A stretch of 64,000 nucleotides of DNA, taken from contig JAFCMP010000201.1 in the NCBI GenBank assembly GCA_017506865.1, positions 186,001 to 250,000 of the forward strand, given 5' to 3'. The notes beneath the pieces were generated by a model, which did not search any database, had not been told where the DNA came from, and saw nothing but the letters and a program-made list of their open reading frames with translations. The position numbers and the translations under genes were made by a program. Shown here one piece after another: positions 2,228-33,536 of the stretch. Within the stretch, counting starts at the first letter, position 1, and each line of letters begins with the position of its first letter. The stretch comes from Tribonema minus (Eukaryota; Sar; Xanthophyceae; Tribonematales; Tribonemataceae).

Positions 2228-3149
2228 GGGTATTTTTGGCGATGGTTCAAGTTGAACTACTCAACACTCAGCATCCGCAAACCATTCAGGTTCAGCTTCA
2301 AGCTTCAAAGCTCAGCAGTGTGGTTTGCACTCTATAGAAAGGGTGCCATCGGTACATTAGCAGTTGTCCGCAGTGAATTGTCAATTTGTCACAAATCCGA
2401 AGCCCTTGGTCACAAATACATGGCTCACTACTGCCAGTGGTACATGCTGCAGGTAAATCAGATACGCATGCACAGGAGTTTGCAGTGACAGTGACAACAT
2501 CAGAAGATCCACATTAACATACCATTGGGGGGCGCGCATGCTTCCACATTTGCTGCAGTCCTGTTTTGTGACTGACAAATTGAATGTGCAATGTCGGCGC
2601 AGGGAGCACCAGCTGCGTCAACTGATGTCAGGCCTGGGCAGCCGCTGATGGCCAAAGCCATATTTCCGAACTCTAGTGTGTAACCACTTGGTCATACTGC
2701 TCTTGTGTGAAAATGCATGAAGCCTGAGCAACCCTACATCAGACATGTGCTGAGATGCATGGTGGGCATACACCGTCAGCAGCAAACAATGCAACAGGGC
2801 AAAAAAAGCTCCGCTATTCCAAAACATATGGATCTATTGCACCATCGCGGTTGCCACCGCTATATTCGAAAAAGAGCGAGGCGCGTAGGGCCACCAGAAA
2901 AGTGTACACGTATACTATAGAGTGCTTTGACATACACTGACTTTGAAGTATGACATCCAGAAGGCGCCACAACCAAGCGATGACCCTCTCACGAAACATA
3001 GCCAAGCTGCCTTGCAGAGTCTGGTGCTGCCTGATCAGTTGCTGCTAATGCAACAGGGACGCCATCTATATAAACCCACACGCTTGCGAGCGGCCTACGC
3101 GCAGTTGTACACAGTGGTGAACTTCACGACCGCGCAGTCGCCGCCTCCG
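2228..3149. other. non-coding part of duplication copy A
   Basis: This stretch is alignable by eye to 40550-41517. No ORF is conserved between the two copies. A TATATAAA box at about 3068-3075 is shared with copy B (about 41450). It points toward the antisense of the TspO-like gene, so its role is unknown. Confidence 0.5.
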
Positions 3150-3395
3150 CTACTCCCTACACACATCCCGACGCCCGTCCGCGGAGCGCCACACCGCACG
3201 CGAAAGCACCGCCGCCAGCGCCACCCCGCCGGCCGCAAGAACCCCCTGCAACCCCCTCGCAGCCCCCACGCTCAGCCGCCCATTCCTCGCGCCCGGGTTG
3301 GCAGCAGCGCCCAGCAGCGCCCACGCGACCGCCGTGCCGAACCCTAGGTCGCGCCTCTCGACGCCATACGCGGTGCCCGTCGCGCCGAGCCCATT
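3150..3395 (-). pseudogene. C-terminal fragment of TspO-like membrane protein gene
   Basis: The minus-strand frame matches the last ~75 residues of the intact gene at 41518-42396, sharing blocks such as GAAANPGARNGRLSVGAARG and the same end in RRE plus stop. Homology stops abruptly near 3395, at the duplication breakpoint. The first residues of the open frame (MSMSANGLG) are not homologous. Without the N-terminal membrane segments this is a broken copy. Confidence 0.85.
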
Positions 3396-3410
3396 GGCAC
3401 TCATTGACAA

Positions 3411-3893
3411 GTAGAGGATGTCATCAGCCCGACTATGCTAGCATTTTGAAATGTGGTTATTGTCACCGCAACAAACAGAATTTCATCAGAGCATGTCATG
3501 TGGTCTGCGCAACCACAGGTCCGCACAGCCCTTGTGGAGGGGATCTGACAGTTGACGTGCAAGGTCGGGGGTTGCAGGAGCAACTAGGGCCATCTCATAC
3601 CCGCACGTCGCACTGGTGCTTTTGGATGTTTGTCAACTTGAATAGTGGTTGCTATTGTTCAGTTACAGCAAAGGGCGCATGAGGAGTTCAAGCTGAAAAT
3701 ACCATCGTGCCATACTGCCCGCCAATTGGAATCGGATTGAACTTTCAAGTGTCAACTTTGCGTCGCATGACCAAAAAAACTCCTGCGCGTGTGTCAAGGC
3801 GCCCGCAACGGTGCAAGGCTGCCTACTAAGCACATGGGCCCCAATTTTTGCCTCCAGCTACTGTACGCTGTGGGTTTGCAGACTGTTGTGGCT
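3411..3893. other. gene-free stretch downstream of GBP gene A
   Basis: The stretch lies between the broken TspO-like fragment and the stop codon of the minus-strand GBP gene A, so it should contain that gene's 3' UTR. No conserved ORF or repeat was recognised. Confidence 0.4.
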
Positions 3894-6800
3894 CTACCCA
3901 TTGTACTCAAGCCCGCCCCACCCAGAACCGCCGTAACCGCGACTGCTCCTGGGATTGCAGTTCACGCATTGACAGTTCCTTGAATGCGAATCTCCGTACA
4001 TCAGCATGCCACCAAGCGGCTGGTGCTGGAGGTAATCGAAAGCGGCGCGCTGCTCCGATCTGCCGCTGTTGCTGCCGCGCCTGTACGCGGCGCACGACGC
4101 ACACGGGCACCCCGCGGGGCCGCCGCCGCTGCGGTGCTGCCGCTCCAGCTCTGCGGCGCGTGCCACCGCCGCTGCCGCCGCCGCCTCTGCCGCGCGCGCC
4201 GCCGCCTTCGCCGCCTCACGCGCGCGCCGCTCCGCATTGAGCCGCCGTGCACGCTCCAGCGCAGCGCGCACGGGCACGTGCGCGGCGAAGGCGCGAGCAT
4301 CGCGCGCTGCCGCAGGCATCAGCGCTCCGCATGCGGCAGCGTTCATATCTGGCGCAGCAGCGCAGACGGCGGCAGCGAGCTCGCCGAAGGCGTGCTGCAC
4401 CGCGGCGCCGCAGCGCTGCTCCAGCTCCGCATCATCCATGCTGGCGCTGCTGCCGCTGCTGGCGCTGCTGCCGCTGCTGGCGCTGCTGCCGCTGCTGCCG
4501 CTACTGCCGCTGCTGCTGCTGCTGCTGCCGCTCGTGAGCTGTGTCATGTCAGCCTCGACCTGTGCGGCGGCGCGCGACACGAGGTCCTCGAGGCAGCGCG
4601 CCAGCGCCGCGCGCGCCGATGCGTGCAGTGCAAGCGCTGCCTCGCTGCGGCGCTGCAGCGCCGCCGCCAGGCGCGATTGCGCGGCGGCGGCGGCGGCGCA
4701 GACGGCAGCGCTCGCGGTGTTCGCAGCAGCGGCGGCGCCTGCGAGCTCAGTGAAGCGCGCCGTGGCAGCGGCGTTGGCGGACCAAAGGCGCGTGGCGAGG
4801 TCGTCTTGCGGCAGCACGGCATTGGCGGCTGGCGCATCGCAGAGGTCGCGTGTGGCGGCGATGAAGCATTGCTCAGCTGCGGTCTCAGCATCCGTCAGCC
4901 TGGTGTGCGCGAGAGAGCGCATTGCAGACAAAAGCAACCAAGAGCAGCGCAGACAAAAGCAGCAGCAGACAGGGACTGAGAACATTCTGCGCGATGGTTG
5001 ATGGAAGAGAGTTGCAGGCGCCGTAATGAATGTTGTCGCTGGAATGCATAGAATTGAAAAGTATGCGTTGCCACATGTGCTGAAGCAATTGTTCAATGTC
5101 AGCTGTTGCCACTGTTGTTGGTCCAGACGTTGACCGATGCGTCAGCCTGAGGATGCTGCATCGGCAATGCTGATTAACGTTCTCAGAGCAAGTCCATTAA
5201 CATAAGCATGCGGCTCCACTGGCTTTCATGCTACAATGCAAAGCGCGTTCGTGCGCCGCTACCGTTGTGCACGACACATGTGTCAATGTCAGTAGCCCAA
5301 TGCAATGTAGCCCACTCATATGACACCTCTCCATGCCAATTCATGCTCCTGAACCCTGATCCTAAAAGCCACTGCCGCCTCACCGGCGCATAAGCATGGC
5401 CTCCACCAGCGTCGCCGGCGACAGCTCGCCCGCGCCGCCATTCACCGCGCGCACCACCTCCCGCAGCGCGTCCGCCGCCAGCGCCACCGTCAGCACCGCG
5501 CCGCCGAAGCGCCGCGGCGCCGCCAGCCGCAGCGCCGCGTCGCCGCGCAGCGCCGCCAGCGCCGCCGCGAAGGGCGGCTCCGAGTCGGCGGCGGCAAGCG
5601 CGCGGCCGCGTGTGGCGGCGTCAGCGGCGGCGGGCGGCAGGCAGTGCACAGCGACGCTGGCAAAGGCGCGGAGGAGCGCTGCGCGCGTGGCGTTGCGTGC
5701 GCGCGCGCTGTCTTCGTCTGCGTCGCGGCGCGCGGCGCCGGCGTCCTGCAGTTCCGCGGAGGTGGAGGGGGAGGTGCGCTGAGCATGCTTGCAACACAGG
5801 CCTAGTAGGAGGACTTCTTTGAGGTACTGCTGGGTTCATTGCACAGTAAGACGTGGTGATGATGAGCGCAGCTGTGAAATGCAAGGGGTGCATCTGGTGC
5901 GCTGCACTTAACGGTTAGTTGTGCTGAGTTCCTTTGAAATGTGACTTCACCATTGTGCGCCCAGGTGTTGTCGATACAACGCATGTCGGTACCTGTACGT
6001 GCGTTGTATCGACAACACCTGGGCGCACACCATGATTGGACTTCAACTAGCAGTTTTGTATCCAGAATAATTTTTGGTGTGTAAACGTTTACGAACCAAC
6101 CCCCAAGTTGTATGCCAAGGCTTGCCACTCATGCAATCAAAAAGTAACAGCAGCACACCTGCCTCACGAGGCTGCTGTGATAGGCTCTCAAGGTCAAGTC
6201 GCTTCGCACGGTGGTTCTGAAGATGTCACGATGTGTTCTTCAATTACTGTAAGCCGCTGCTTGCAGGTGCACATGCGTGCAGTGCCCCATGGGAAATCAT
6301 CTGGGCTAGAGCTGAGATTTAGGTAAGCAATTTTGACCTCAGAGCTCACTCAAAGTTCTTGTCTCAATCTCAAAGCGAACTCAGAGTGCAGCATACTCAA
6401 CAACACACATCAGACCTACAGCACCAAATACTTGCTGTCTACAGCACCAAATACTTGCTGCACTCAATAACAACAACGTCACACACCACAGCAGAGTCGA
6501 TGTTTAAAGACACTGCTACCTCTTTTTTTTAAATGAACGTGGCTGACCTCATTTCCGAAAATCAGCTCATAGCAGTCCTCCCTGGGCGCAATGCAATCGC
6601 GCAGCACAACAATAAGGTCGCCGAAGACGCCATCGCGATCGCTGCTTGGCAGTCAAAGAGCGACGGGCACCGCTGTCATGAGCATCGCTAATATTCAGCA
6701 TATACAGGCAGGCAGCAGTGGCATACATGGACTCTAAGTGCGCTGAAGCATCCGACAGGCGACCTTCTTCATTCGCTCATGGGCGCACATATTAGTGAAT

Positions 6801-8581
6801 GAAAACGAATCAAAAGATTGTAGAGCTCATTAGTATTTGCTAAGTTAGGCCACCTCTCTCCAATGGCAGCGCAAGCTACGGGCGCTTTGTGCCCATCGCA
6901 GGACACAACATAAAATTAGTCAGATGCCGAGTGCAGGCCCCATAGGTGTACCTGCCCTTCAAATCGTAATGGTTTTTTGTTGAAACGCCAGTGATCGCGC
7001 TAGCCCTTTATTTGACATGACACATCAATTTGTAGAAAAACACTTTCTGTAAGGTCACTAGTATACAACAACACTTTGGTGCATGATGATCCAGTGGTCG
7101 GGGGCATACTCAATCACTCAAACATTCACGATGACTCTAATGTTCGTCACGGTTGTACAAGCTGATCTGTTTTGCAGGCCAGCTCGTGCCAGTGTTTCTT
7201 GCATGTGTACGCAGCCGGCGTTGCACGGATTTCAGATATTGTCAACGGTTGCAGCAAGCACATGGATGTACAGCACGTAGGCATGCATGCATGTGTACTT
7301 TGTCGACCTGCGACAGTCACCGCTGCGCTGAGCACTGCTGTCATGCTCTATACCTGCGGTTCACAACGGCTGCGGACGCCTGCAGCAGTGCCAGGTGGTT
7401 GAGCATGGTGGTCTTGTTGGGCATGCCCAGCCAGTTGAAGATGACAACCCGCGACAGCAGCAGTACGGGCAGCGCCAGCTTCACGTCGCTGCTCATGCCG
7501 CGGTCACCCTGTGGCAGGCGTTGCATGCAAGGTAAGAGAAAGTTAAAAAACAGCACAACGGTAGACGAGGGAGAGGGGACCCAGCCCGTGCAGCAACTGC
7601 GCTGCGTACACGCAGTACATGAGTCTCAACACTACCGACAGTATGCCAATGGATGCTGACTTGACAAAGAGAACTTCAAGCACATTGCAATGACATGCAT
7701 ATAGTATGGGTGGGGCACACGCTGTCGCTGATCTAACAATCACTGATGGCATGATACTACTTCTAGTATACCTATAGGGAAAGTCGCTGATGGTCAACAG
7801 ATACTATAAGTACTTCCGCCGCTCGCTGTTTGCAGCGCATACAGTAGTGATTATGATCAACAGTCAGCTCCTGAGATGACAAGCACACAAAGCATCAAGG
7901 TGCTGCCTGCATGTATTATAATATCAACGTGCATCTCAATCGTGGGGATTTGTTGGCTGGTCTGACCTGGCCCTCCATATCCAGCACCTTGACCAACACA
8001 TCCTGGGGCAGGCCAGCTACTGAAGCATCTGGCACAGGACCCGGGTGTGTGGCAGCAAAGTCGCGTAGTGGCAGAGCTGCTTGACTGATGTCGACGCCCT
8101 GGGTGCATGGCTGGACGGACGCACTCACGTGAAAGCAATCGCCGCCTACTAAGCAGTTTGCCAGGAACGACTTACCCTGCAACAGGCATCAGCAAATCAG
8201 CAAGTGTCGTCAGGGAAGGGGGGGGGGGACAGAACAGATCAGCAGATCAGCATGAGTCATTAATGTCCTGCATCACAAGTTGATGTGTATGCTGACAGTA
8301 CATTATATGCGGCAGGCACGCTATACAAAGCCAAGGCCGCCTCCGCGTGCTGGCCGAGTTGAACATGCATGGTCAAACACTTCACGGCCACGGTAAGCCT
8401 GGTTGCTGTCAAATTTGTATGTTTGACTCAGGAAGAGGCATACCTGCCTCGCGCTACCAAACACACAAAGCAGATTCAATGGAGTGGCCTGCGCGTCCAA
8501 GCTGGCGTCGTGATTGAGCGCCTGGCAGCCCTGCTCGTCAACTTGCAGCTCCTCGCCACGGGGACCCCGCGCGAGGTTCAC
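3894..8581 (-). CDS. GBP-type large GTPase, gene A (spliced, 6 exons read)
   Basis: Exons in transcript order on the minus strand: ~8581-8444, 8176-7967, 7508-7354, 6641-6548, 5778-5384, 4899-3894. All junctions are GT-AG and in phase. The product is a guanylate-binding-protein/atlastin-like GTPase. Its P-loop GSARQGKS is split by intron 1. A PCTQG switch, a D-x-E-G (LDMEG) G3 motif and an LRDC G4 motif follow, then a helical middle domain. The last exon gives a long Ala-rich coiled coil, a Ser/Gly tract (near 4445-4545) and two cysteine clusters, CPCASC and CQCVNC, before a TAG stop. Internal exons of 210, 155 and 94 nt equal those of gene B. The exon 5778-5384 is uninterrupted where gene B has an intron. 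The 5' end is unresolved: an in-frame TAG lies upstream of the GTG at 8581 and there is no in-frame ATG. The biological role is unknown; GBPs in other eukaryotes act in membrane remodelling or defence. Confidence 0.82.
5954..6029. repeat. 30-bp perfect inverted repeat (hairpin)
   Basis: The arms are 5954-5983 and 6000-6029, perfectly complementary over 30 bp, with a 16 bp spacer containing GGTACC. One arm plus the spacer recurs at 19187-19238 and 19886-19933 with one or two changes. It lies in the 5779-6547 intron of GBP gene A and is probably a transposon end or foldback remnant. Confidence 0.9.
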
Positions 8582-8902
8582 AAGTCTGCAGCTTGAGCTT
8601 GCTGCTTCTTTAGCTGCATTTGAGTTCTATCTCTTTGTCTCTTTGCTGTCCACCGCAGCTGTGTGTCCTGCTCAACTGCGGAGGTGATCTCGTTCGGCGC
8701 AATATCAAAGAGCGACGGGGATTTCTCGCTTGAACTTGAACATGACGAGCCAGTTCCCAAAGAGCGAGCGACGCTAGCTCGACTGACATGTGATGCGTCG
8801 CCGGGCCTCCCCGGCCACATACTAGCTCGTGTAGTGCTCGTCATAGCTTGTGTGGTCGACAAACTCGAGCGGTCTCCCTGCTGTAGGCAAGAACACGCTT
8901 TG
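8582..8902. promoter_or_regulatory. shared 5' region of the divergent GBP gene pair
   Basis: The readable exon 1 of gene A (minus) and of gene B (plus) start on opposite sides of this interval, so any promoters must lie in or near it. No TATA box was recognised. The interval is open on both strands, so part of it may be untranslated exon or N-terminal coding sequence for either gene. Confidence 0.4.
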
Positions 8903-11900
8903 ATGTGCCTCGCTGGGACACCGACGGCCTCCGCAGATGGAGCAGCCAGTCCTTCGGCATCGCCAGGAACCAGAGCAAAACACGATGAGGCAGTACCGGC
9001 CGCAGTGCCACTTCTGCGACTGTCAAGAGGGACCAGCGGCAAGGAGGAGCTGAAGCTTCAGGAAGATGGCCTCGATGCATTGCAGCACGTACCTGCTGCC
9101 GATGCAGCTTTACCCCTGCGGCTGGTCACCATACTGGGGGCAGCCAGACAGGTTTGTTGCACATCAAAACATCAAAGTCACCTCCTTTGTCAGGCTCTAT
9201 GTGTACTCACAAGATGTACACAGCTTGCAGCCTGACCCATTCGTTCTTTAAAAAAGCTGGACTCATTCCAACTCGTGTCATGCAGGGCAAGTCGTTCCTG
9301 ATGAACTACCTTCAGGGCAGCGACAGCTTCACCGTGAGCGGCGCCGTAGCGCCATGCACGTGCGGCGTGGACATCAGCAGCGCCGCGCTCACAGTGGCCG
9401 CCTTTGCGAACGGTCACAGCACCTCCAGGCTGAGCGTTGACAGCAGCCCCCCGACTGAGGGGGGGCTGGTGATGGTAGCTGACGTTGAAGGCCAGGTGAG
9501 ACCGCGCTTTATGTGTTACTTTCACACATGTGCTGGTCGTGAATCGCATAATGCGGTCACCGACATCGATCAGCAACAGTGATGGCAAATACGTCTTGAG
9601 ATACGAGTACTTCCATGATCCTGAGATATCACCTCTGAAGGTTTGACAACAATTCAATGAAGCTGTAGTCCACTAATACTTCTGCCATGCCATCATCAGC
9701 ATGTGCAAGAGCTCGCTACTCAAGTGCACCGACATCAGCACTGTTGAGCACAGCTGGTGTTCCATTATCAGATGGTTGACACCATGTGGTGCAACTTCAA
9801 CTTGGAGGTCAGCACAAATGCAACGCAAAGCGCGCTCACAAAAATCGCAAATCATCAACCAAACGTATTTGAGTTGAAGCTGCTGCCTATCATTGGGAGC
9901 TGGCTCACCAAAAACAGTCTTCCTTTGCGAGCAACCAGCCCATACCACGGCAGCATATACAGCATATGCATATATGCCTCACCCTTATCTGCTAATGTGC
10001 CGCAGGGCGACAAGAACAATGGATATGACCTCAAGCTGGCGGTCCCCATGCTGCTCCTCTCCAACGTGGTGCTGTTCAACTGGCTTGGCATGCCCAACAA
10101 GGACACCATGGTCAACCAGCTGGCTCTCATGAAGGCAGCAGCCGACATTGTGGACCGAAGGTGTGGCAGCGGTGCTCAGCAACTTGAATGATTGCAATGA
10201 AGAATTTGGTCGGGCAATTCCATGCACTGTACCACCGCCGCGCAAGCAGCCATGTAACTTGAACTAGAGTATCAGAGTGTTGTAAGGTTTGCATGCAGTT
10301 ACTGCAGATGAGATGTAATTGTGCAAGCAGTAATGAATAAGCTCTATCTGGACGTGCTGCACCTATAAACACACTTGGCTATGCCCTTTTAAGTGCAATC
10401 ATACTATGTTGCTGTCTTCTTCAGTGCAAAGTGCCCATCTTCTGTGATCATGGCCACATGCATTCAATGAAGTTGAGCTGCTCAACAAATTGTGCATTGA
10501 TGCATGTTCTTGCACAAGTTTATGAACATAATGGGACCCCGCCTAGTCAGTAGTCTAAAGTTATATGACGGAAGTGTAGAAAGACAGTGCTGCAGCAAGG
10601 AGAAGCCCAAACTCTGTCAGAGGTTCACTCTGCTGCAATGGCAAGTTGCAACACAGCATTGCGGGAGCCATGACTTGGACTTTTCCGCTTTGGTTTCCAT
10701 GGCTGATAGCAGCCGCTGATGCAAGATCATGCATCAACCTTGGCAGCTTCCAGCATGCACAGATTCCAGCATGCATACATGATCATGCATCGCTGCATCT
10801 TCTCACCTCTTTGCTACCTGCAGCAACCGCAAGAACGCTTTCGGCCACCTGGTAGTGGTTCTGCGGGACTGCACATCGTCGCGCCATGAGTGCTTTGACA
10901 TCATATTTGGCATGGAGGCAAGTGGTTGCGTTTACCTTCCTCTACCAGATTCAGTCATAGTAAGCATGTTGTGGCACTGACCTAGCTGTTGCCCCCACTA
11001 GACTACTGTTGTACGCTGCAAGAGATATCTAGACATCAAGGTAACAAAAGCTTGACAAGGCTGACACTGGTCGTCTGCTCTCAGGAGTGGGTGTATAATA
11101 GTGTGCCAACAGGCGTAACTGTTGTCACCGTTGAGCGTGCAATGGCAACAAGCATAAGATGTCAAATGCTCAAACACATGCATACATTCATGGCAACTTT
11201 ACATGCTGCCCTTCACGTAACAGTGTCCACCACCACCTTGGTCGTGTGCTTCAGCATTACAATGCACCACGTGTGCATCTGCCGCCACTGTACCCGTAAA
11301 ATTGTACTGTCAGCCTCATCTCTGCGTGCACATACAGCAGTACTGACACATTTGCGCACAAGCAGAGTTGCAAGTAGCAGCCAACACTACACTGCAGCAC
11401 GCTGCCACTCTGTCCGCCCTCCACCCCCCGTTTGAACTACTTGTGACTCATGACAAGAAAGATGGAAATGTGTGGCAAGCAAGTCTTCAATGTTACAGTA
11501 TTCATCACATGCAGCGCACAGTGGCGTGATCTCTGTCATTGTGCAGTGCTGGCCTGTACTGTGTATTTGCGCTGTGCACTCACCATACATGTGCTTCCAG
11601 TGCTTGCGTGCATTCATACATGGCCGTCCAGGTGTGCCATCAGCAAGACCCGGACGCATGCATGCTTCAGGAACAATCGCCAAAAGTGCACAACAGCATC
11701 AGCGTTTGCAAGATCAAATACAAAAAAATCCAGCATCTTCATGGCGCGTTGAGCATGCAACACATTCAAACCTGCAGCATCTTCACACGCCTGACAACGC
11801 GAAGTGCTGTCGCTTGCCGCCACCATGCAGAGTCCCGAAGACGCGGACACCGACAAAGCGGAGGCTGCCATGAGGGACCGCAACTGCGCGCGCGAGGCGC

Positions 11901-14830
11901 TGAAGCGCGCCTTCACGTCGACCGCGCTGTTCACGCTGCCCGTGCCGCACCCCGAGGCCACCAGGCGCGGCGCTCTGCCCATCTCCGACGCCACGCAGGT
12001 ACGTGCTAGTTTGTGCAGTAAGTTATAGTATTCCATACTGAACACCCATGCCTCGAACGCGAAAAGCTTGCACACAGAAGTGTTTTTTACTACTGTGGTT
12101 ATGGTGGTACTTTTTGACTCGTGGCCAATGACTGCAGCAGCGGCGACCACGGTTATTGGTGGAAGGCACTTGCGGCTAACCATTCCTTGTCACCTGGAGC
12201 TCTACGATCTTTTGATTCGTTTTCATTAACTAATTTGAATACTTAGAGTTTACATGGAGCAATTGTCAATGCGCATTGAGACATTTTCAAGTCTCACAAG
12301 ACACATGTAGATTCTGGTGGCACAACGAACGTTTGCCATCTGGGCGTTTTCACGCGCCACGCGAGAATCAATGAAAAATACACAGGAGCTTTTTGTCAAG
12401 TAATTCAACGTACTTCTACACGTTGCCTGCTCCCTTGTAGAAGTATACATTCTGTAAGGTAAAATTATCTCCTGAGTAGGTGGGCAGTGACACTGCAATC
12501 TCCCTGGCGCGTTGTCATCATGGCATTGAAGTTGCAGCTCGTCTGTGATGAAGTGGCCCCCCACTTCAAGCGCTTTCTGAAGCAACCCCCCCTTCTGACG
12601 TGTATGAGAAGCTGCTGACAATTCATATTTGTACAACACTTCAAGTTTAGGTACGTGTCTGTCATCTGAACATGAGCCGTGGATGCCCTTCTCTGAACAC
12701 AACACCGATCCCTCGGGCCATCACGTGCGGAGCGCTGCCACATCAACAACTGCCACATCAACAACACAAGAATCAAGATTGACCGCTGCTACCATGCATA
12801 CCGCTACCTGGTTTCTGCAGGACTTTGTAGACGCTGGGGAGAGAGGCTTCAGGCACACACTGTGGCATGTCATTGCGTGCGGAGCGCTGCCACACCAACA
12901 AAAACTAAGCCTGAGCACTGCTGCTGACTCGCATTCCGATACCCTCCGTGCAGGACTTTGTGGACGCCGCAGAGGGGCTTCGGGCGCACATCGCAGCGTG
13001 CCATTTTGTGCGGAGCGCTGCCACACCAACAATCAAGCCTGAGCACTGCTGGTGACTTCAAGTTGCTTTCCGATACCCTCCCTGCAGGTTTTTGTAGATG
13101 CCGCAAAGGGTCTTCGGTCGCACATTGCGGCGTGCCAACGCATGCGGAGCGCTGCCACACCAACAAGCAACCCTGAGCACTGCTGCTGACTTGCTTTCCC
13201 TGCAGGACTTTGTGGACGCCGCAGAGGGGCTTCGGGCGCACATCGTGTCGTGCCTCGCGCGCCCGCCGCATGCCTTCGGCAACGAAGTGATCACTTCTGC
13301 CATCGCGTGCGGAGCGCTGCCAGGCATCGTCAAGGCGGTGAACGACGGCGCCAAGGACCTGTCGCCGCCAACCATCGTGGAGGCGCTGCACATGAGCAGG
13401 TGACGCACCATGCACATGAGCGCCGCTCCTGCAGCACCAGTGACCGTTCATGGGTGGCGTTGCTGCTGCCAAGGGGGTACCGATTGCACTTGCTGGGACA
13501 GCAGAAGTTGTGCACACTGCGCAGTCATGCATGGGCGTTTTGACGAGCCGTCAAAGCTTTAGGTGCCTTTCTGAGTGGTAGGAGCCACACCATTGTGGAG
13601 GCGCTGCACATGAGCAGGTGACACGCGGTTTGCGATGCTGCAGCACCGGTGACAGTTGCAACTCGTGGGTGGGGTTAATGCTGCCAATGTACTACTGATT
13701 GCACTTGCCAGGACTTCCAGAAGTAGTGCACGCTCCGCAGGCATGCATGCGCATTCTGACGAGCCATCGAAGGTGTCCTGCTGAATTGTCAAAAAGCCGC
13801 AAACCAGCTGTGTCAGTAGTTTATCACCCAGTCACCACTGTAGAAACCTTGAAGGGTGCAACATCTCGTGCCCCGGGCACCATGTGTACACCAAGCCTCC
13901 AGTGGCAGCATCCCAAGTAACCTGCAAATGCATGTTGTCGCTGCGCCAGAGCACCATGCACTCCAAGCATCCAGTGGCGACGTCCGAGTAACTTCAAGTT
14001 CAACTTGCAATGTATGCCCTCGCTGGCTGCCAACCCCCGCCGCAGCATCGAGGACGCGCGCGCCGCCGCACTCGACCACTTCACAGCAGCGCTCAACGAC
14101 CTCGAGACCGGCCTACACCCGGACGCGCCCGTGCGCACCGAGGCCGACGTGGACACCGTCCTCACAGAGCTGAGCGCTGTTGCCATGGCGCGCTTCGTCG
14201 CGGGGACGCGCGCCGCCGCGGCCTCCGCGTGCGCGGCGGCGGCGGCACGCCAGCTGGCGGCGCGCGGCGCACTGGCGGCGGCGCTGGCGGCGGCGTGCGC
14301 GGCCGTGCGCGCGCAGCAGGCGGCGCTGCGCGCGGAGCTCGGCGACGCCGTGCGCTTCGCGCTGGAGGCGGCGGTTGCGGCGCTGTTCCCTGCGAGCGCT
14401 GCCGCGGACGACGCCGCGCTCGGCGCCGACGGCCTCAGCGACGCCGCCCTTGACGCGCACTGGCGCGCCGCCACCGCCGACGCGCACGCGCGCTTCGCGG
14501 CGGCGCGCGACGCCATCGTGCCGGACGCGGCGCTGCGCGCGGCGCTGCCACAGCCCGCGTGCGCCGCCGCCGCCGCCGCCGCGACGCTGGAGGGCTTCCG
14601 CAGCGACGCCGGCGTGGGGCGCGCGCGCGCGTCGCTGGAGCGCGCCAACGCCGCGCGGCGCGAGCGCGCGGCGGCGCAGACGGCGGCGGCGCGCGCCGCG
14701 GCGGCGGAGGCGGCCGCCAGGGAGGCGGAGAGGCGCGCAGAGGAGGCCGCGACGGCGCGTAAGCGTGCGGAGGAGCTCCAGGCGGAAGCCGAGCGGCGCG
14801 CTGCCGCGAACGTGGGCAACGGCTATGGAT

Positions 14831-14861
<31 letters not shown>

Positions 14862-15057
14862 GTACATACTTGCGGGCGATGGGTACGGCAGCGGCGGCAG
14901 CGGCGGCAACGGCAGCGGCGGCGGCAGCGGCCATGGCGGAGGCAGCGGTCCCCCCTGTGCTGGCATGGTCCCCAAGTTTTTCAAGGGTGGGCAGAAAATG
15001 GGCGGTGGGGGCCGTGCCGGTAAAGGCGGCGCGTGGGGTTATGGCTGGCCCAAGTAG
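8903..15057 (+). CDS. GBP-type large GTPase, gene B (spliced, 7 exons read)
   Basis: Exons: 8903-9151, 9286-9495, 10006-10160, 10824-10917, 11831-11998, 13206-13399, 14046-15057, all phase-consistent. The start is uncertain: the in-frame ATG at 8663 is the alternative. Encoded features are the P-loop GAARQGKS (split by intron 1), PCTCG, VADVEG (G3) and VVVLRDC (G4). A helical domain and an Ala/Glu/Arg-rich coiled coil follow, then a Gly-rich C-terminus (GMVPKFFKGGQKMGGGG) and a TAG stop. Intron 4 has a GC donor (GAG|GCAAGT) where gene A has GT. Intron 5 is absent in gene A and contains tandem exon-6 fragments (12821-13205). Gene B looks like a paralogue of gene A produced by an inverted duplication. 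The Gly-rich tail replaces gene A's cysteine clusters. A guanine-nucleotide-hydrolysing, membrane-associated role is inferred from the family only. Confidence 0.82.
12264..12385 (+). mobile_element. decayed LINE-2 3' tail
   Basis: The order of short blocks (CATTGAGACATTTTCA, CACATGTAGATTC, CCATCTGGGCGTTTTC, GCGAGAATCAATGAAAAA) matches the 3' untranslated tail of the LINE-2 copies at 1.1, 17.8 and 53.3 kb. It has several mismatches, lies in intron 5 of GBP gene B, and shows no clear target-site duplication. Confidence 0.7.
12821..13205 (+). repeat. three tandem truncated copies of GBP gene B exon 6
   Basis: Copies begin after a CAG at 12821, 12954 and 13088; the real exon begins at 13206. Spacings are 133, 134 and 118 bp. 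Each copy keeps the 3' splice acceptor, the DFVDAAEGLRAH start and a TGCGGAGCGCTGCCA block, but lacks the middle of the exon. Each is followed by a shared CTGAGCACTGCTG spacer. A further partial TGCGGAGCGCTGCCA lies at about 12725. Confidence 0.9.
13365..13780 (+). repeat. tandem duplication of exon 6 end plus intron 6
   Basis: The block from the end of exon 6 (GAGGCGCTGCACATGAGCAG|GT) through about 13560 is repeated at about 13585-13780. The second copy keeps the last ~30 bp of exon 6 and its donor site, followed by diverged intron (GATTGCACTTGC, then GACGAGCC blocks). Confidence 0.75.
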
Positions 15058-15060
15058 GGA

Positions 15061-15838
15061 AAAAAAAAAGCAGGGTGCAAAATTCAACTTCTTAGAGTCT
15101 CTAGTATACTGTTCGCATCCGGCGGATGCTGTCATGCCATCAGTGACAGTGTGCCCATTGGCATGTACGTTGACTGCACGCTGGCATGCAAGATGTGATG
15201 CTACCTTAACCCCTCAACACCGTGGCACATGAAGCAGAAGGCTGCACTACTGCAGTTTGACAGTGGCTAAGCGTCTGTTGACGCGTTTGTGAACAACGAC
15301 AATGGCTTGGCCTGCCAGCACGAGACACCATTGCACATGAGGGCAGCTCACAGCTAGCACGCTGCTGTGCTTGTTTGCAACGCCATGCTGCGGGGCAGCT
15401 CACAGCTAGCACGCTGCTGTGCTTGTTTGCAACGCCATGCTGCGGGACAGTGAAGTTGTTGCAACGGCACTGTGACACACTGACAGTTTGCAGGCAAGGC
15501 CTCCCGGGACTTTTGCAATTGATTAATTCTTAATTTTTTAAAATTAAATTTAAAAATGAAAAATGAATCAAAAGATCAATATTATGAATACAGGTCCACC
15601 AGTGCGAGGTGAGTGCCCTCCAGCATTTTTGATACAGAGGCATGCTGGACGTTTTGATGACAGCAGTACTATATTGTGTGCGCATGCGCAACGACCATTA
15701 CCAATTGGCAAACACTGTTACGGGTGAATTTGCCCGTCCCTCAGGCAGGCATACAGCTTTTCAATGGGCCGTGACCCCCCACAGCTGCAGCGCACAGCAA
15801 TTTGCTTTCAACGCGTCGGAATCCGAAATGCGTTGCGC
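15061..15838. other. 3' flank of GBP gene B, non-coding
   Basis: No supported gene. The stretch holds a 52 bp tandem duplication (15342-15447) and an AT-rich block near 15520-15590 unlike its surroundings. Confidence 0.5.
15342..15447. repeat. 52-bp direct duplication
   Basis: Two essentially identical head-to-tail copies of a 52 bp block starting GGCAGCTCACAGCTAGCA. A single diverged copy lies at the equivalent position in tandem unit 2, near 17100. Confidence 0.9.
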
Positions 15839-15990
15839 CACGTGTGCTGCCGCCAACCCGGGCGCGAGAAGTTCGTGGCTGAGCGTGGAAGCTGCGTAGA
15901 GGTTGCAGCATGAGGTGTGACAGCCCTTGCGGCTGGCAGGGTAGCACTTGCAGCGGTGCTGGTGTTTGCCGGCCGTCGCGCTGCGGGCGC
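15839..15990 (+). pseudogene. decayed TspO-like gene fragment
   Basis: In plus orientation, AANPGAR and LSVEAA followed by a stop correspond to AANPGARNGRLSVGAARG of the intact gene at 41.5 kb; later blocks need frameshifts. It is a remnant of the same C-terminal region as the fragment at 3150-3395. Confidence 0.65.
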
Positions 15991-16248
15991 ACGCCAGAAT
16001 GACCAGCAGCACTGGCAACTGTAATTGTGATGTCTGCTGTGTACATTTGGGGCGGCTGAATCCCGGCGGGGTCGGCGCCGCACCAGCGCCTGAAGCACTG
16101 GCAGCTTCACCCGGCCAGAGTCGCAGTCTGGCAGTGCGCAGCGGCTGCCAGTACTGGCAAAGGCGTCACCGTGACCGTACCCGTACCGATGGAAGTTGGT
16201 GAACCTGGGCCGGCGGGTCACCAGAGAGGGATCACGTCGCGACCTTCG

Positions 16249-16879
16249 CGCGATCGTGCTGGACGCGGCGCTGCGCGCGGCGCTGCTGCAGCCCGCGTGC
16301 GCCGCCGCCGCCGCCGCCGCGACGCTGGAGGGCTTCCACGGCGACGCCGGCGTGGGGCGCGCGCGCGCATCGCTGGAGCGCGCCAACGCTGCGCGGCGCG
16401 AGCGCGCGGCGGCGCGGACGGCGGCGGCGCGCACCGCGGCGGCGGAGGCGGCCGCCAGGGAGGCGGAGAGGCGCGCAGAGGAGGCCGCGGCGGCACGCAA
16501 GCACGCGGAGGAGCAGCAGGCAGAAGCCGAGCAGCGCGCTGCTGCCAACGTGGGCGGCGGCTACGGGTGCGGCGGCGGCAGCGGCGGCGGCGGCATTACG
16601 TACATACTTGCGGGCGATGAATACGGCAGCAATAGCAGTGGCGGCAGCCGCGGCAACGGCAGCAGCGGCCGTGCCGGAGGCAGCGCCCCCCCCCGTGCTG
16701 GCATGGTCCGCAAGTTTTTCAAGGGTGGGCAGTTCATGGGTGGCGGACAACTTACCGTGAAGGGCGGCTCATGGGGCTGGGGCAAAGCAAAGAAGACGCA
16801 CGGTGCACACTTCATTATTTTAGAGTCTGCTGCTCCCTTCTGGCAGAGGCTATCGTCACAGTGTGCCAGTGTAATTTGA
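16249..16879 (+). pseudogene. duplicated C-terminal half of GBP gene B
   Basis: The open frame repeats gene B from DAALRAALPQPAC to the C-terminus: the Ala/Arg coiled coil, a NVGGGYGCGGG block, ITYILAGDEYGS, and GMVRKFFKGGQFMGGG. The gene B stop is lost, so the frame reads on into former 3' flank until a TGA at 16877-16879. It has no GTPase domain. The ATG at 16196 lies in unrelated upstream sequence. It is most simply a partial tandem copy, though the frame has stayed open for over 600 bp. Confidence 0.8.
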
Positions 16880-17569
16880 TTGCATGCTGGCGTGTAAGTG
16901 TGATGGTTGCATTGCTGTTTGCAGGGCCAATACATGAAGCAGACGGCTACACTAGAGGTCTGCAATCTGATAGTGGCCAAGGCTCTTGAGCTTTTGAGAG
17001 CGCAAGCATCTATCTACTTTTTTGAAAATAAGGACCAGCATACTACATAATTCATGGGCCTGCCAACATATCACACTAATGAGACATTGCGCATGCCAGT
17101 GGTAGCTCTATGGCTGGCACGCTGCTGTGCTTTGTTTGCAATGTCGTATATATGCTGCGGAACTGTGATTCCAAAGTCGCTGCAATGGCACTTGGTGTGC
17201 AGGCAACGGTACTACTAGTAGAGCGAGTGATGTTGTAGGGCGCAAGCGTTTTTTGTGCCAGGTGAGTGCACTCCGAGTCCACCACCCTGAGTATACTGGT
17301 AGTATACTATACTGTAGTACATGAGCATCATGCTGCATGTTTGAGGGGACCAGTATGTGCACATTGGAACGACAATCATCCATTCAATACTAAGCTGACG
17401 CACACGAGTGATTTGTTCGTCGCCCAGGCAGTGATGCTGTTTTCCTTGGGCTGTGATCCTACACATCCCCTTGGGCAGCTGCTGCACATGTGACCCTCCA
17501 CATCTGCTGCACACAGCGGTTCGCTCTTAGTACATTCGTGGGAATACTCTGAATGCGCTGCAACGTGGG
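16880..17569. other. second-unit 3' flank, non-coding
   Basis: Diverged counterpart of 15061-15838. No supported gene; short ORFs on both strands are not conserved between the two tandem units. Confidence 0.45.
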
Positions 17570-17710
17570 CCTCCGCCACCCCGGGCGCGCGGCTGAGCAT
17601 GGGGGCTACGAGGGGGTTGCAGCCCGAGCCTGAGGGTGGCCTTGCGGCTGGCTGGGTACTGACTCTAGTAGTGCTGGCGCCAGTGCTGGCGTGCGGCGTT
17701 CGCCGCTCTG
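17570..17710 (+). pseudogene. second decayed TspO-like gene fragment
   Basis: The blocks PGARLSMGATRGLQ and LVVLAPVLA are reminiscent of PGARNGRLSVGAARGLQGVL and VALAAVLA of the intact gene. It sits at the same place in tandem unit 2 as 15839-15990 does in unit 1. Confidence 0.6.
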
Positions 17711-17803
17711 CAAGCACGCGTCAGAACTCGCGTTGTGACCAGCAGCACTGCCCTGGCGACTGCACTTGTGTTATTCAACAAAGTTCACTGTGCACATGTG
17801 AAT

Positions 17804-18236
17804 GTACTTTTTATTAATTCTCGCTCAGGGCGCGAAAAAGCCCAGATGATTGGCATCTAGCTGTAAGGAATCTACATGTCGTATGACAGTCTGAAAGTGT
17901 CGCAACGACCACCACTCAAACGCCGCCGCCGCCAAATGGCATCTCGGGGTCCTCCCCTACGTCCTCCTCCATGTGCCCCCCCCCCCTGGATTCTGCCATG
18001 TGTGTCATGACACGGCCAGAGTACGCCATGTGGAGCGCTGCCGACAGTGCCGAGCGTAAGCGCGCCAGGGCGATGCCCTTGAGAGCTTTAGGGCGCGCTC
18101 CTCCGGGCACTGACATCCTGCTGGCATACTCCGTCGCCACAGCCTCCAGCAGCTTCCGCCCCTGCTCCCCGATGCTGCCAGATGACCCTATTGCCAAAGT
18201 GGCAAGAGTGTGTGTACTTTTTATTAATTCTCGCTC
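17804..18236 (-). mobile_element. LINE-2 3' end copy plus a second nested LINE-2 tail
   Basis: On the minus strand the insert 17804-18207 encodes LATLAIGSSGSIGEQGRKLL through HMAESRGGGHMEEDVGEDPE and stops with TGA after GGGGV. This gives the intact C-terminus of the LINE-2 protein. The 3' untranslated tail ends in AAAAAGTAC. Immediately upstream, at 18214-18236, lies another LINE-2 tail terminus, so two insertions abut. Confidence 0.88.
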
Positions 18237-18450
18237 TACTAGTAGGCCCTTGGCAAACTGTGGGTACATGTATGATAGATGGCGTACCTTCGGCATCTGG
18301 TGCACCAGCTTCAGTTCAGACAACGGCGGACTTTGCAGGGCACCTTGGCCATATATTGTACGAGGGCCAACACCGCAGTTGCGAAGCAGCCTTTTGCATG
18401 TAATGCCAAAAACCGCCATGCTTGTTATCGCACAAAATAATGGCAATTGT

Positions 18451-18556
18451 GTCCTAGGGCACAGCGCAGACTAGGCTGCTGCGTTGACGCAAGCTTTTCG
18501 ATTGCATAGGCAACCCGGCCTCCCTTGGGCCTTTATAAAAACAAGTCCATACGTAC
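18451..18556 (+). mobile_element. 106-bp LINE-1 3' tail
   Basis: The sequence matches the end of the full LINE-1 element (26700-26806) from CCTAGGGCACAGCGCAGAC, including the last codons GHSAD and the TAG, to CAAGTCCATACGTAC. It has only a few differences. It is an extreme 5' truncation typical of target-primed reverse transcription. Confidence 0.92.
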
Positions 18557-18559
18557 TAC

Positions 18560-18975
18560 AGTATACTTCTATAAAGGTTGACTGCAACGGTGCAATAGGC
18601 GCATCCATGTGTGGCCCAGTTACTGTAGGGCGGACGTTTTCCCTGCCCGATCGCATGCATTTATGCATTTGTTCTGCCATGTGGCCCAGTGGCACTGGCA
18701 CCATGCATTTCAGCATATGCCTGATGTAGGGGGTTGCTGAGGCTTCATGCATCACGAATGATTTACACACACTGTTGGCAAGAACACTCAGACCGGATTG
18801 CGCCCTTAGGCTAGACTTCAAAAATATGGCTTTGGGCATCAACGGGTCTGACATCCATTGCACAGCTGCCGCTCCCTCAGGCTGTGTCGACATCGCACAA
18901 TGTCATTATCATTCACAAAGTTTAACCTGGACTGCAGCAAAGCTGGAAGTGTGCATCCCCCCGTCTTCATCTAGA
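18560..18975 (-). repeat. third, inverted copy of part of the segmental duplication
   Basis: The reverse complement matches copy A about 2510-2890 and copy B about 40880-41230 through ordered blocks: TTTGCTGCAGTCC, CCAAAGCCATATTT, ATGCATGAAGCCT, and CTATTGCACC. It is more diverged than A and B are from each other. Confidence 0.7.
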
Positions 18976-19186: not shown

Positions 19187-19238
19187 TTTGTGCGCCCAGG
19201 TGTTGTCGATGCAACGCATCTCGGTACCTGTACGACAA
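19187..19238 (+). repeat. half copy of the 5954-6029 hairpin element
   Basis: It matches the left arm and spacer (GTGCGCCCAGGTGTTGTCGA, then CGGTACCTGTACG) but lacks the right arm. It lies directly left of the ~322 bp repeat that begins at 19246. Confidence 0.85.
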
Positions 19239-19885: not shown

Positions 19886-19933
19886 TTGTGCGCCCAGGTG
19901 TTGTCGATGCAACGCATCTCGGTGCCTGTACGA
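19886..19933 (+). repeat. second half copy of the hairpin element
   Basis: It matches the 19187-19238 copy nearly base for base (GTGCGCCCAGGTGTTGTCGA, then CTGTACGACA) and also lacks the complementary arm. Confidence 0.85.
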
Positions 19934-20292: not shown

Positions 20293-20748
20293 TTGCTTGA
20301 GCGCCGCCTGTGCAGCGCCTTATGCCGCGCCTGCCAGTCGCGGAGGCGCTGCTGCTCCTCGGGCGTATGCGCCGCCCAGGTACGTGCACTGGCCCTTGCC
20401 CCTAATCGGGCACGCGTCACGGTGCTTTGCGCTTGGCCGACGGGTACCAAGCTTGGACCCTGCCGCACGTCACGCCGACTGCATATGCGGCCGGCGGCCA
20501 GCGACGCGCCAGCAACACAGACCCTGCTGGGCCGGACTCCCTGCGCACCGCTGGTGAGTCAGATGCATGACCTGACGGTCACGTTCAGCTTGCTCTCCCT
20601 CCGAGAAGAGGGTAATGACCTTGCAACGGTGTTTGACCAACTCTCCCTTAGGGAACCGGTCGTTGCCAGGTCGCCTCGCCAGCCAGCCGGGAAACGTGGT
20701 GAGTCAGACGTAACGCAGGCTGGTGATAACAGCACCCCGCAACAATGA
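20293..20748 (+). CDS. small basic ORF at the 5' end of LINE-1
   Basis: A 151-residue open frame rich in Arg, Cys and Ala. It has a small internal repeat (LLSLREEGNDLATVF then DQLSLREP) and no recognised domain. Its TGA overlaps the ATG of the next frame as ATGA at 20745-20748, an arrangement that in other non-LTR elements allows reinitiation. It may be an ORF1-type protein or simply leader sequence; function is not claimed. Confidence 0.45.
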   Translation: MLERRLCSALCRACQSRRRCCSSGVCAAQVRALALAPNRARVTVLCAWPTGTKLGPCRTSRRLHMRPAASDAPATQTLLGRTPCAPLVSQMHDLTVTFSLLSLREEGNDLATVFDQLSLREPVVARSPRQPAGKRGESDVTQAGDNSTPQQ

Positions 20749-21689
20749 CCGAGACAGCACCTGTCACGGCTATGGTTGCCAGTGGAAAGCGCAGTCGACG
20801 CAGAGGTAAACACAGACGGCGGACGCAGGAGCGACAGGCCCAGTGCGACAATTCTCGTGCACCCCTGGCACCAGCCACCACACCGCCGAGGGGCGGTGCC
20901 TCTGCCCCCTCAGCACCAATATCCGGGCCGGCGAAGGTCACCACCGTGACGGTGGCGACCCGGATACCCTCAACCGTGTGCCATACAGTCACCGTGGAGG
21001 AGCAGCAAGACGCGCTGGCAAAAGCCACCAACTATGGTTTTTCCACTTGGCACACGGACCTGCAGGCACTCCACAAACAGGCGCTTGGGGAAAACACAGC
21101 GACGCTAGCACGTGGTGGGGAGCTTCGCCCCGTGAGCAACGTGGGCAACGGCAACTGCCTGATTCATACAGCTCTACACGGCATAGGCAGCGTCGCAGTT
21201 GAGCACGGACTGCCGACCCCAGCGCTGGTGATTGCCATGCGAGAGGCACTGCTGGACGGGATGGTGGCATACGTCACGCAGGGGGCGGGCAAACAAGGGG
21301 CCAGCATGTCATCGATGCGTCAACTGACCGCGCATGCAGCAGCCCAACCTGCGTGTACACGTGAACAATTCGACACGTACGGGACACGCGCTCGCTGCCT
21401 CGCAATCGAGTACGGCACAAATGAAACGGACAGCGCAGACAGCGGGCACACGCTCCTGCTGCAACGCCTACAGGAAGAGGGCGTGTGGGGACGGCCCCTC
21501 GGTTTGTCTGTGTGGGCCATTGTTGCAGCGGTCTACGCGGTCTCGGTGACGGTGTGGCAGGCCGAGCCTCAGGCCACTGGCAGCATGCAAAAATCAACAG
21601 GGCTGGTGCTGGCACAACTGATGGGGCTGCCAGCGGTATTCGCACCAGCAACTCCGGCTCAGCCTGACTGCCATCTGGATGTGCTGTAG
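20745..21689 (+). CDS. OTU-like cysteine protease part of LINE-1, ended by TAG
   Basis: A 314-residue frame. The N-terminal ~100 residues are basic and Pro/Ala-rich. From about residue 130 an OTU-like cysteine box appears, NVGNGNCLIHTALHG, with the nucleophile Cys near residue 138 and Asn where many OTU proteins have Asp. A helical region follows (ALVIAMREALLDGMVAYV). The TAG at 21687-21689 stops the frame before the His box. Reading on in the same frame gives GHFELLV at 21717-21737, the expected OTU catalytic His motif. The TAG therefore cuts one domain in two, most simply as a CAG-to-TAG mutation or a readthrough site. Confidence 0.75.
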   Translation: MTETAPVTAMVASGKRSRRRGKHRRRTQERQAQCDNSRAPLAPATTPPRGGASAPSAPISGPAKVTTVTVATRIPSTVCHTVTVEEQQDALAKATNYGFSTWHTDLQALHKQALGENTATLARGGELRPVSNVGNGNCLIHTALHGIGSVAVEHGLPTPALVIAMREALLDGMVAYVTQGAGKQGASMSSMRQLTAHAAAQPACTREQFDTYGTRARCLAIEYGTNETDSADSGHTLLLQRLQEEGVWGRPLGLSVWAIVAAVYAVSVTVWQAEPQATGSMQKSTGLVLAQLMGLPAVFAPATPAQPDCHLDVL

Positions 21690-21713
21690 ACGCCGCCTGG
21701 GCTATATACAAAT

Positions 21714-24700
21714 GTGGGACACTTTGAACTGCTTGTCGCCCCTGCGGCAGCTCCGCCCTTGCCAACCACTGTGACAGCATCGGCGACCACTCAAGCTGAC
21801 AGCACCCACATCACGGCTCCGAGTCGGACACAGCCCCGTACTGCGCTGCAGTTGCCACAGCAGCCTGAGCCACTGAGGTGTCCACTATGCACACTGGCAT
21901 TTTGGCAGCTTGGTCAGAAAGAGGACAGCAAACAGCGAGGCAAACTGTCAGCTGCGGGCCGCATGGCACCGGTAGTGGCCCGCTTCAACGGTGGTAGCTG
22001 CACGAGGTCGATGCTGAACCCTGAGGCGAGCACATCACACTGTCAGCAAAATCCGGCGGCAGCATACGCCAAGGGCATCCGGCAGCAGATTGATCACAAC
22101 CCATCCGGTGACCGTGCCCCTTCAGGCAGCAGTACCTGCAACACTGGGGCACACCATGCCAAGCGTGTGCAGGAGATGAGCACCATGTATGGTTGCGCAG
22201 CAGAAGACTTTCTACGCGCAGTAAGGAAGCTGAGTGCATGCACAGGTGCCTGCAGTCTGGTCCATATGTCAGCCAGCGCGGGGCAGAGGCAATGCGCGCT
22301 GACCTCGCCATGCCACACGTGTCGACGGAATGGAAGCGCCCCCACGCGCGCACGCCCGGCAGTACCCCCGGGCCAGTCCGAGGGCGGGGGTGCGGGTAGC
22401 GACGGCGCGGCCGCGGCGGCGGGGGCTGCCGCAGCGACACCTCCAAAGCCACCGGCGGTGCCGGCTAGTGGCGCTGCCAACTCAAAGTCCAGCAAGAAAC
22501 GCCCGGCGGCCACGGCAATCGGCGTGCAACGCCGGCGCCGAACGGCAGCTGCTGCAGCACCGCCTGGCAGCGCCGGCAGCCGCACTCAGTCTAACAGCCT
22601 AAGGCTGCAGGACAGCAGCCCCCCCCACGGGACGGCCGTGGGATGGGCGGACATGGACTTGGACCCGCCGGACGATGCCGCGTCACCGCCCCCCCCGACC
22701 ACCACCACCAGTGGCAGGCCCTCAAAGCCCCAGGCACGAGCATCCCTGGCTTGGGACCTCTCGACGCCCTCGGTCGTCCACGCACTTGACCAGACCAATG
22801 AGGCGGATCTACTGCTGCTACGGTTCACCACGACTGCCAACCCCTTCCACACTCAGCTGCAGTGCACCCAGTGGGCACGGCTAGTGGAGCACGCCACACG
22901 ACTACTGGCGGACGCCACAGACAGTGCGCGTGAGGCGGCACGGGTGCGCCTCCACCATGGTGCCGGGGCGTTTGCTCAGCAGGTTTCTCAGACTCTAGTG
23001 CAGCGCGGCTACAGGCTGCTGCACCTGCTAGCAGCAATGGCCTTTGGTAGGCAACCGGAGGGAACCGGTATGCCGCCTGCGGCCCGGCTGGCAGCGTTGC
23101 TGTCTGGCGACTTCGCGGAGCTACTGAGAAAGACGCTGTCAGCAGCAGCGGCGCTGCGGGCCCCCAAACCAAACAACGCAGCTACGGCGTCGGCACAAAC
23201 GAACTTCGATGCCGACTGGACGGAGGCTGACTCCAGGCAGCAAACAGCATGCGCTGCCCTCTCAGGCAAGCGACGGGGGGTAGGCCTGGCTGCCGCACGA
23301 CTAGAGGCGCGTGAAGTATGCACCCCAGCAGACGAGGTCATGGCACAGGTGCTGGCAGCAAAGCACCCTGAAACTGGCACCCGGCCCGGGGTAGTCGATA
23401 CGCCAATGGAGCAAGTGCGCGGCCTGGTATGCGACGCCCGGCGGCACTGCTTGCACGGCGCAGGGGTGGCAACGACCGCCGGGCCCGCTGGCAGCGGCAG
23501 TCCCGTCTTCAAATCGGGTCAGGCGCATGATCGCAGCGATAGGCCTGAGGATGCTGCCAGCGCAGCCGGACGGCGCCTCGAGGTGGAGGCGACAGACATA
23601 CTGTCGACCTTGTCCGCAGCAGGGGCGGGGAAGGCAGGAGGGCTGGACGGCCTACGCTATGAACACCTCTTGATGGCCGCTGGGCCTGGTGCACCAGTGA
23701 AAGCAGCCACCCCCCCCGTGGGCAGTGCCTCGCCAGGACTAGCTGGTGATTCAGAATCGGATGTGATGGAACCGGCATTCGCCCATCACCTGGCCAAGGT
23801 GTTCACGACGCTGCTTGTTGAGCCCGAACTGCTGCCGGAGCAATCGCAACGGCTTCTCCGCGCCGCGGCCCTCTCAGGCATAGGACAGAAGCGGCGTCCG
23901 ATCGCCTGCTCCAGTGTCTGGCGCAGACTCCTCGGGTCCACAGCGGCACGGAGTGTCAAGGGCAAAATACCGGGGCTGCTGGCCTCCATGTCGCAGTTTG
24001 GCGTAGGATACCGGTCTGGCGTCGAGCATGTGGCAGCGCGCGCGCGCGTGTGGCACGAGCTGTATGGCACCACAATCCAGCTGGACTGTGAGAACGCATT
24101 TAACAGTGTGGATCGCGCCGCCATTGTGCGGGGACTTATGCTCTTCTGTCCGGAGCTGCTCCCGCACTTTGAGTCCGTATACTGTGGTGACACTGCCCCA
24201 GAGATGCGAGTGGAGGTGAACGGTGAAGCTCGCATTATCTGCTCCCACCTAGGGTGCCAGCAAGGGGACCCTCTAGGGCCGCTGTACTTTGCAGTGGCAG
24301 CGGCCTTCCTACTCTTCTACCCTGATGGAGTGAATGCGACGCCCGGCAGTATGCCGGCCTACGGCCACAGCACAGCGGAACCGCCAGCCCCGCACTGCGC
24401 TTCCCTGGATGACCTCAACGTGCTGCAAGCTGCCTACTTCGACGATGCAGCGGCCGCTGGGGTGGCAGAGGTGATCCGTCGGCTTGTGGCTGGGGGCCTA
24501 CGCGTTCGACCAGACAAGTCGCTGGCCATCGCCATGCGCGGCACAGTGTTTGATGAAGCGGCCAGAGCACGCCTGCGCGCCCTTGACATACCGTTTGTGG
24601 ACGCCACCATGCCAGAATCCAGTCAGCCTGAGGGCTTTACGTCAGTCGGGGTACCGGTAGGGCACCCAGCCTATGTGCATGCTGCCATGAGCAAGCATCT

Positions 24701-33533: not shown

Positions 33534-33536
33534 GGC

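Follow-up and report, generated by a model that had tools for sequence, protein, structure and literature searches.

Two intact, diverged paralogues that belong to the GBP branch within the dynamin superfamily lie head to head in the genome of Tribonema minus, and they would lie at the centre of an old mirror-image duplication, in which a downstream gene, now present as fragments, was also included. We place the probability of this reading at about 85%. The window analysed in this study was a stretch of 64,000 nt, positions 186001-250000 of contig C201 (JAFCMP010000201.1), and the genome searched comprised 158 Mb in 554 contigs. The genome is photosynthetic, since an exon-by-exon genome search gave 92 matches to the chlorophyll a/b-binding family. 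No match to the RuBisCO small subunit was obtained in a six-frame genome search, and light-harvesting matches were abundant; introns that split this short family are perhaps the reason, and a likely one.

Results

Structure of the gene pair

Gene A lies on the minus strand at 3894-8613 and gene B on the plus strand at 8903-15057, so that the paralogues are divergent. The features of the region are shown in Table 1. A head-to-head pair of GBP-type GTPase genes with matching exon architecture had been predicted, and the exon models, BLASTP and Pfam agree with it. Internal exons of 210, 155 and 94 nt were confirmed in both genes, with end phases 0, 2 and 0, and the P-loop is indeed split at the same place (GSARQ/GKS in A, GAARQ/GKS in B). 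The spliced model of B has seven exons and encodes 693 residues, and that of A encodes 678 residues with its tentative first exon included. All modelled junctions of both genes are GT-AG except the donor of B exon 4, which is GC (ATGGAG/GCAAGT). The intron lengths are 479 (first, tentative), 267, 458, 712, 802 and 484 in A and 134, 510, 663, 913, 1207 and 646 in B. Five introns are common to A and B in position and phase (0, 0, 2, 0, 2), and one intron found only in B (11999-13205, 1207 bp) splits the counterpart of the single 362-nt exon of A.

The tandem array in this fifth intron of B consists of partial copies of exon 6, and the final unit coincides with the beginning of exon 6 proper. The copies were considered as alternative exons and rejected, because they look internally deleted and without the exon-6 donor when read by eye. 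An inverted repeat of about 76 bp was also observed in an intron of A (5953-6029), with single arms at 19188-19234 and 19886-19932; it is a dispersed hairpin-like element.

Table 1. Features of the GBP gene pair and its flanks (positions in the window; a slash marks the exon-intron junction)
Feature	Position	Strand	Basis
A tentative first coding exon (candidate), antisense to B exon 1	9093-9132	-	donor CAG/GTACGT, phase suits acceptor at 8613
A exon ending at P-loop (CVFGSARQ); 5' limit tentative	8444-8613	-	exon model
A 210-nt exon: GKS, switch I Thr, DxEG	7967-8176	-	exon model, genome search
A 155-nt exon	7354-7508	-	exon model, genome search
A 94-nt exon: LIVVLRD (G4)	6548-6641	-	exon model, genome search
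A 362-nt exon, equivalent to B exons 5 and 6	5384-5745	-	exon model
A last exon: Ala-rich region, Ser/Gly tract, two CxCxxC clusters; stop 3894-3896	3894-4899	-	exon model
A 3' flank: mirror blocks 3205-3308 and 2528-2764; C-terminus remnant of 304-residue ORF	2528-3437	-	DNA search, tblastn
B exon 1, first in-frame ATG to P-loop	8903-9151	+	open frame, donor CAG/GTTTGT
B exon 2, 210 nt: P-loop GKS, switch I Thr, DxEG	9286-9495	+	exon model, genome search, Pfam GBP
B exon 3, 155 nt	10006-10160	+	exon model, genome search
B exon 4, 94 nt: LVVVLRD (G4), GC-AG donor	10824-10917	+	exon model
B exon 5, 168 nt: guanine-cap-like region begins	11831-11998	+	exon model, Pfam
Tandem array, 134-bp period, 3.4 copies	12815-13254	+	TRF, repeat search
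B exon 6, 194 nt	13206-13399	+	exon model
B exon 7: Ala-rich presumed helical region, Gly-rich tail; stop 15055-15057	14046-15057	+	exon model
B 3' flank: mirror blocks 15846-15960 and 18699-18962; weak ORF remnants	15846-18962	+	DNA search, tblastn
Second copy of B tail, 81.6% identical to 14511-15200	16249-16905	+	repeat search; frame open over aligned tail
Complete 304-residue ORF	41518-42432	-	tblastn

Assignment of both products to the GBP family

A GB1/RHD3-type G domain had been set in advance as the HMM test, and both spliced products scored above the gathering cut-off of Pfam GBP (PF02263), with 24.1 bits for A and 38.6 bits for B against a cut-off of 21.1. A exceeds the cut-off by only 3 bits, which was counted against the GBP reading. 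When the later exons were added, the score of A fell from 26.3 to 24.1 and that of B rose from 34.2 to 38.6; the match of the full B model extends to profile position 249. GBP5 was the best match for each product in a structure search with single sequences (E = 6.4e-4 and 3.4e-3). A three-sequence profile searched against solved structures matched GBP5 (7ckf at 8.1e-10 over two stretches, 7e59 at 2.6e-9 over one), GBP2 (1.2e-6) and GBP1 (2.9e-6), and the unclassified protein LOC432253 (8.9e-5) outranked one GBP2 entry (9.7e-5). The 7e59 alignment spans profile positions 16-273, taking in the P-loop, DxEG and RD and running into the guanine-cap region. The motifs GSARQGKS/GAARQGKS, PCT, LDMEG/ADVEG and VLRD of A/B aligned with human GBP5, and RD in both proteins stands in place of N/TKxD. 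In human GBP1, the P-loop arginine, the switch-I threonine, DxEG and RD serve in catalysis or binding. The identification of both genes as new GBP-family members holds, in a family already known in plants and green algae.

A third GBP-like paralogue, C, was found on contig C510 (locus L016, PF02263 38.9 bits). Its motifs GAARGGKS, PCTTGVD, DVEGQGD and FRD align with those of A and B, whereas its P-loop intron lies two codons later and its other G-domain introns differ, as read by eye. The G4 exon of C lies in a 161-bp tandem array of 3.5 copies (L016 5509-6078), in which at least one further copy of the exon keeps acceptor, frame and donor by eye. The repeated exons of this array and of the array in intron 5 of B look like decaying tandem duplications. 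Genome searches with the G domain of B gave seven matches (six in A/B exons on C201, one on C510), those with the G domain of A gave eight (six in A/B exons on C201, two on C510), and those with C gave ten (six on C510, four on C201). An exon-by-exon genome search with PF02263 reported only a locus on C146 and missed A, B and C, so that the family census is a lower bound. In viral contigs, a profile of A, B and C matched its pattern in 92 stretches, none of which encoded a relative.

Paralogy and age of A and B

Among the matches found in the assembly, A and B were mutually closest relatives. The two proteins are 52.5% identical over 198 residues, and the BLASTP E value of 4.5e-58 means that the match is not due to chance; a second block of 44 residues is 52.3% identical. 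A blastn comparison within the genes (E < 1e-5) gave four exon blocks and one 41-bp repeat that is intronic in each gene, and the introns are otherwise unrelated. Over 318 aligned codons of the large GTPase (LG) region, we counted 128 differences at first codon positions, 96 at second and 168 at third, and NG86 gave dN of 0.49 and dS of 1.03, the latter near saturation. These values fit an old duplication in which both copies were kept coding.

Mirrored 3' flanks

The region past the stop of A (3205-3308) matches 15960-15846, past the stop of B, in inverted orientation (73.9%, E = 1.5e-15), and 2528-2764 matches 18962-18699, also inverted (65.9%, E = 3.6e-17). The two pairs of blocks are in mirror order, at 586 and 1130 bases from the A stop and 789 and 3642 bases from the B stop. 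The wider spacing beyond B fits the presence of the extra B tail and of a repeat at 17799-18206 between the blocks. In whole-genome DNA searches, which skipped very common words and scored the best candidates alone, 3205-3308 and 2528-2764 each gave three hits, every one of them on C201 (the query site itself, one near 41 kb and the mirrored site beyond B), and 15846-16001 found itself and 3205-3308. As a control, the A 3' flank was compared with eight other 4943-base pieces of the window. Five of the eight gave no match, and the remaining pieces gave one short match, one repeat copy and one direct duplication at 39.7-41.8 kb. An early view that nothing outside the exons was common to A and B was dropped when the mirrored 3' flanks were found.

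Both flanks also contain remnants of a 304-residue ORF. Its C-terminus was found beyond A by tblastn with 90% identity over 70 residues, and pieces of it beyond B (15846-16012 and 17569-17733) matched weakly (53-71%, E = 4e-5 to 2e-4). The remnants share the strand of the adjoining GBP gene on both sides. Since they occur in both flanks, the mirrored unit is larger than the GBP gene. These results suggest that the pair most likely arose from an old mirror-image duplication.

A direct segmental duplication was observed beside the GBP pair as well, where 557-1086, 1929-2346 and 2453-3390 match 39738-41758 in the same order; its blocks are 68-80% identical and closer than the mirrored copy beyond B. 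One repeat has copies with 92-98% identity at 1077-1483, 17799-18206 and 62124-62509, two of which flank the GBP pair in the same orientation.

Alternative explanations for the pair

Upstream of the first conserved exon of A, the reading frame runs into a stop without passing an ATG, so that an additional 5' exon is needed. Phase-compatible ATG-donor pairs for it start at 9132, 9266 and 9281, all beyond the ATG of B at 8903, and the scored candidates fall inside or beyond the first exon of B. The genes may therefore overlap head to head, with the first exon of A antisense inside exon 1 or intron 1 of B, and their 5' ends would meet and may interfere instead of sharing a promoter in the spacer. 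We hold this overlap as a tentative possibility, at clearly less than even odds, because 48% of 300 shuffled sequences also contained a compatible candidate, in a scan confined to 8661-9700 and to donors scoring at least 5 of 7. Two more ATG-donor pairs (8844 and 8820) sit between the genes, although out of phase. The single short 5' region common to both genes in the original prediction is thus only a candidate arrangement. The absence of a start codon from this frame could also mean that one gene, more likely A, is a degenerating copy that lacks a working start. However, A has open exons and good splice sites throughout 8613-3894, its catalytic motifs are preserved and third positions change most often, which makes decay very unlikely.

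With both genes read as coding, A and B could still be relatives of atlastin or RHD3/Sey1 and not GBPs, since all belong to one superfamily and atlastin-3 (3.6e-4) and Sey1 (0.085) also match the three-sequence profile, at lower ranks. This is very unlikely: GBPs came first and best in the structure searches, the four highest hydropathy windows of each protein gave no clear C-terminal membrane span in A or B, and it is the separate PF02263 match on C146 that looks atlastin-like by eye. A and B thus appear nearer to GBPs than to atlastin/Sey1, as judged from the rank order of solved structures. For the origin of the GBP pair, the main competitor is a tandem duplication, one copy of which was later inverted. 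It predicts identical mirrored flanks, and the direct flank duplication at 39.7-41.8 kb indicates that direct copying occurs here. It also takes one extra step, which the sequence does not call for, and we consider it plausible, a little short of even odds. The inverted duplication of the original prediction is accordingly strengthened by the mirrored low-copy 3' flanks as far as the mirrored arrangement goes, and its one-step form is left sharing the same picture with tandem duplication plus inversion. A mirror-image duplication remains our preferred reading.

Divergent C-terminal tails

The C-termini differ as predicted, with a Ser/Gly tract and two C-x-C-x-x-C clusters in A and a Gly-rich tail in B. 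From residue 341 to the end, alanine makes up 28% of A and 31% of B, and no Pfam family matched the C-terminal half of either protein, so that a helical GBP-C/GED domain there is only presumed. The CxCxxC motifs of A are at model residues 608 and 653, and at least two such motifs arose in 1 of 20,000 composition shuffles of A residues 341-678. The Gly-rich stretch at the end of B contains the motif KFFKGGQ. A CaaX box was absent from both C-termini (LEYNG in A, GYGWPK in B). Among the four highest 19-residue hydropathy windows of each protein, the maxima lie in the LG domain (1.83 in A, 1.74 in B), and a further window of B, Ala-rich and located at 426-445, reached 1.50-1.55.

The last 0.7 kb of B is the part copied at 16249-16905. 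Over 180 codons, the tail and its copy differ at 16 first, 22 second and 28 third positions, with a dN/dS of about 0.45 (YN00) to 0.56 (NG86), so that weak constraint is indistinguishable from recent relaxation. When the B tail was searched against the genome, it found itself, this copy, and weak matches on C19 (6.4e-5) and C434 (2.9e-4) that may be compositional.

Other divergent gene pairs

Divergent light-harvesting neighbours were found on C1 (1237208 minus, 1241824 plus), C79 (1257657 minus, 1260591 plus) and C554 (558996 minus, 560392 plus), as read from the strands of the matches alone; those on C1 and C79 are possibly duplicate copies of a single locus. Two long ankyrin-matching ORFs in the window, at 29884-31638 (minus) and 37764-39443 (plus), are also divergent and similar-looking. 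These results indicate that divergent paralogues are not rare in this genome, and the light-harvesting pairs imply that the layout alone says little on the co-regulation proposed for A and B. The minus-strand ORFs between the ankyrin ORFs (32302-37347) look by eye like a DIRS-type retroelement, and the two of them that were tested gave no Pfam match. A LINE-like element with a 1677-residue ORF lies at 20730-26723 (plus), and its RVT_1 match (E = 1.8e-4) is below the curated cut-off.

Discussion

Each product would have about 680-690 residues, arranged as an LG domain that includes a guanine-cap-like segment, followed by a region rich in Ala and presumed to be helical and by a tail of low complexity. 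If the two proteins behave as characterised GBPs do, the LG domain would dimerise when loaded with GTP, the P-loop arginine would aid GTP hydrolysis, and the tail would set assembly on a target. Since A and B have no CaaX box and no clear C-terminal membrane span, their divergent tails, with Cys clusters in A and a Gly-rich stretch in B, probably decide the site of action. In human GBP1, GBP2 and GBP5 (PF02263), the LG domain, the Arg-bearing GxxxxGKS, the switch-I Thr, DxEG and RD are as in A and B, whereas the tails of A and B are Ala/Gly/Ser-rich, unmatched in Pfam and without CaaX.

GBPs are established in plants (PMC12489281, PMC12034427), and a published GBP tree includes Chlamydomonas reinhardtii (PMC9629626). 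In PMC12489281, the plant GBPL1/GBPL3 clade is described, like A and B, with an LG domain and a C-terminal extension without CaaX; these proteins are 1000-1100 residues long and contain coiled coils, a disordered region and an NLS, in contrast to the 678 and 693 residues of A and B. AtGBPL2 and atlastin have the G-domain superfamily in common with A and B but carry C-terminal transmembrane helices (PMC12034427 and PMC12489281), and none is clear in A or B. Dynamin-superfamily proteins in algae have been treated in PMC11789081, the main text of which contains neither 'GBP' nor 'guanylate'. No title among those listed in searches of the open literature library concerns two GBP genes arranged head to head in an alga.

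In animals, GBPs act as cell-autonomous defence GTPases, and in land plants they are linked to immunity and to the nuclear pore (PMC12034427, PMC12489281 and PMC9629626). A and B may have a role in stress or defence. A more far-reaching proposal is that A and B work as the two components of a dedicated GBP machine in this lineage, co-regulated and hetero-assembling, as an independent parallel to plant GBPL1-GBPL3. In A, the tail with its Cys clusters, lipidated or metal-binding, would then replace CaaX in anchoring to a membrane or target, and the Gly-rich tail of B would drive condensate-like assembly. We consider this proposal unlikely, and the pair would carry greater weight only if co-expression or hetero-assembly is true. 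The mirrored flanks offer a readable example of how a divergent pair may originate. The small set in Tribonema minus, with two neighbours, a third paralogue on another contig and an atlastin-like match, and with strikingly different tails, would be convenient for asking which GBP functions predate land plants.
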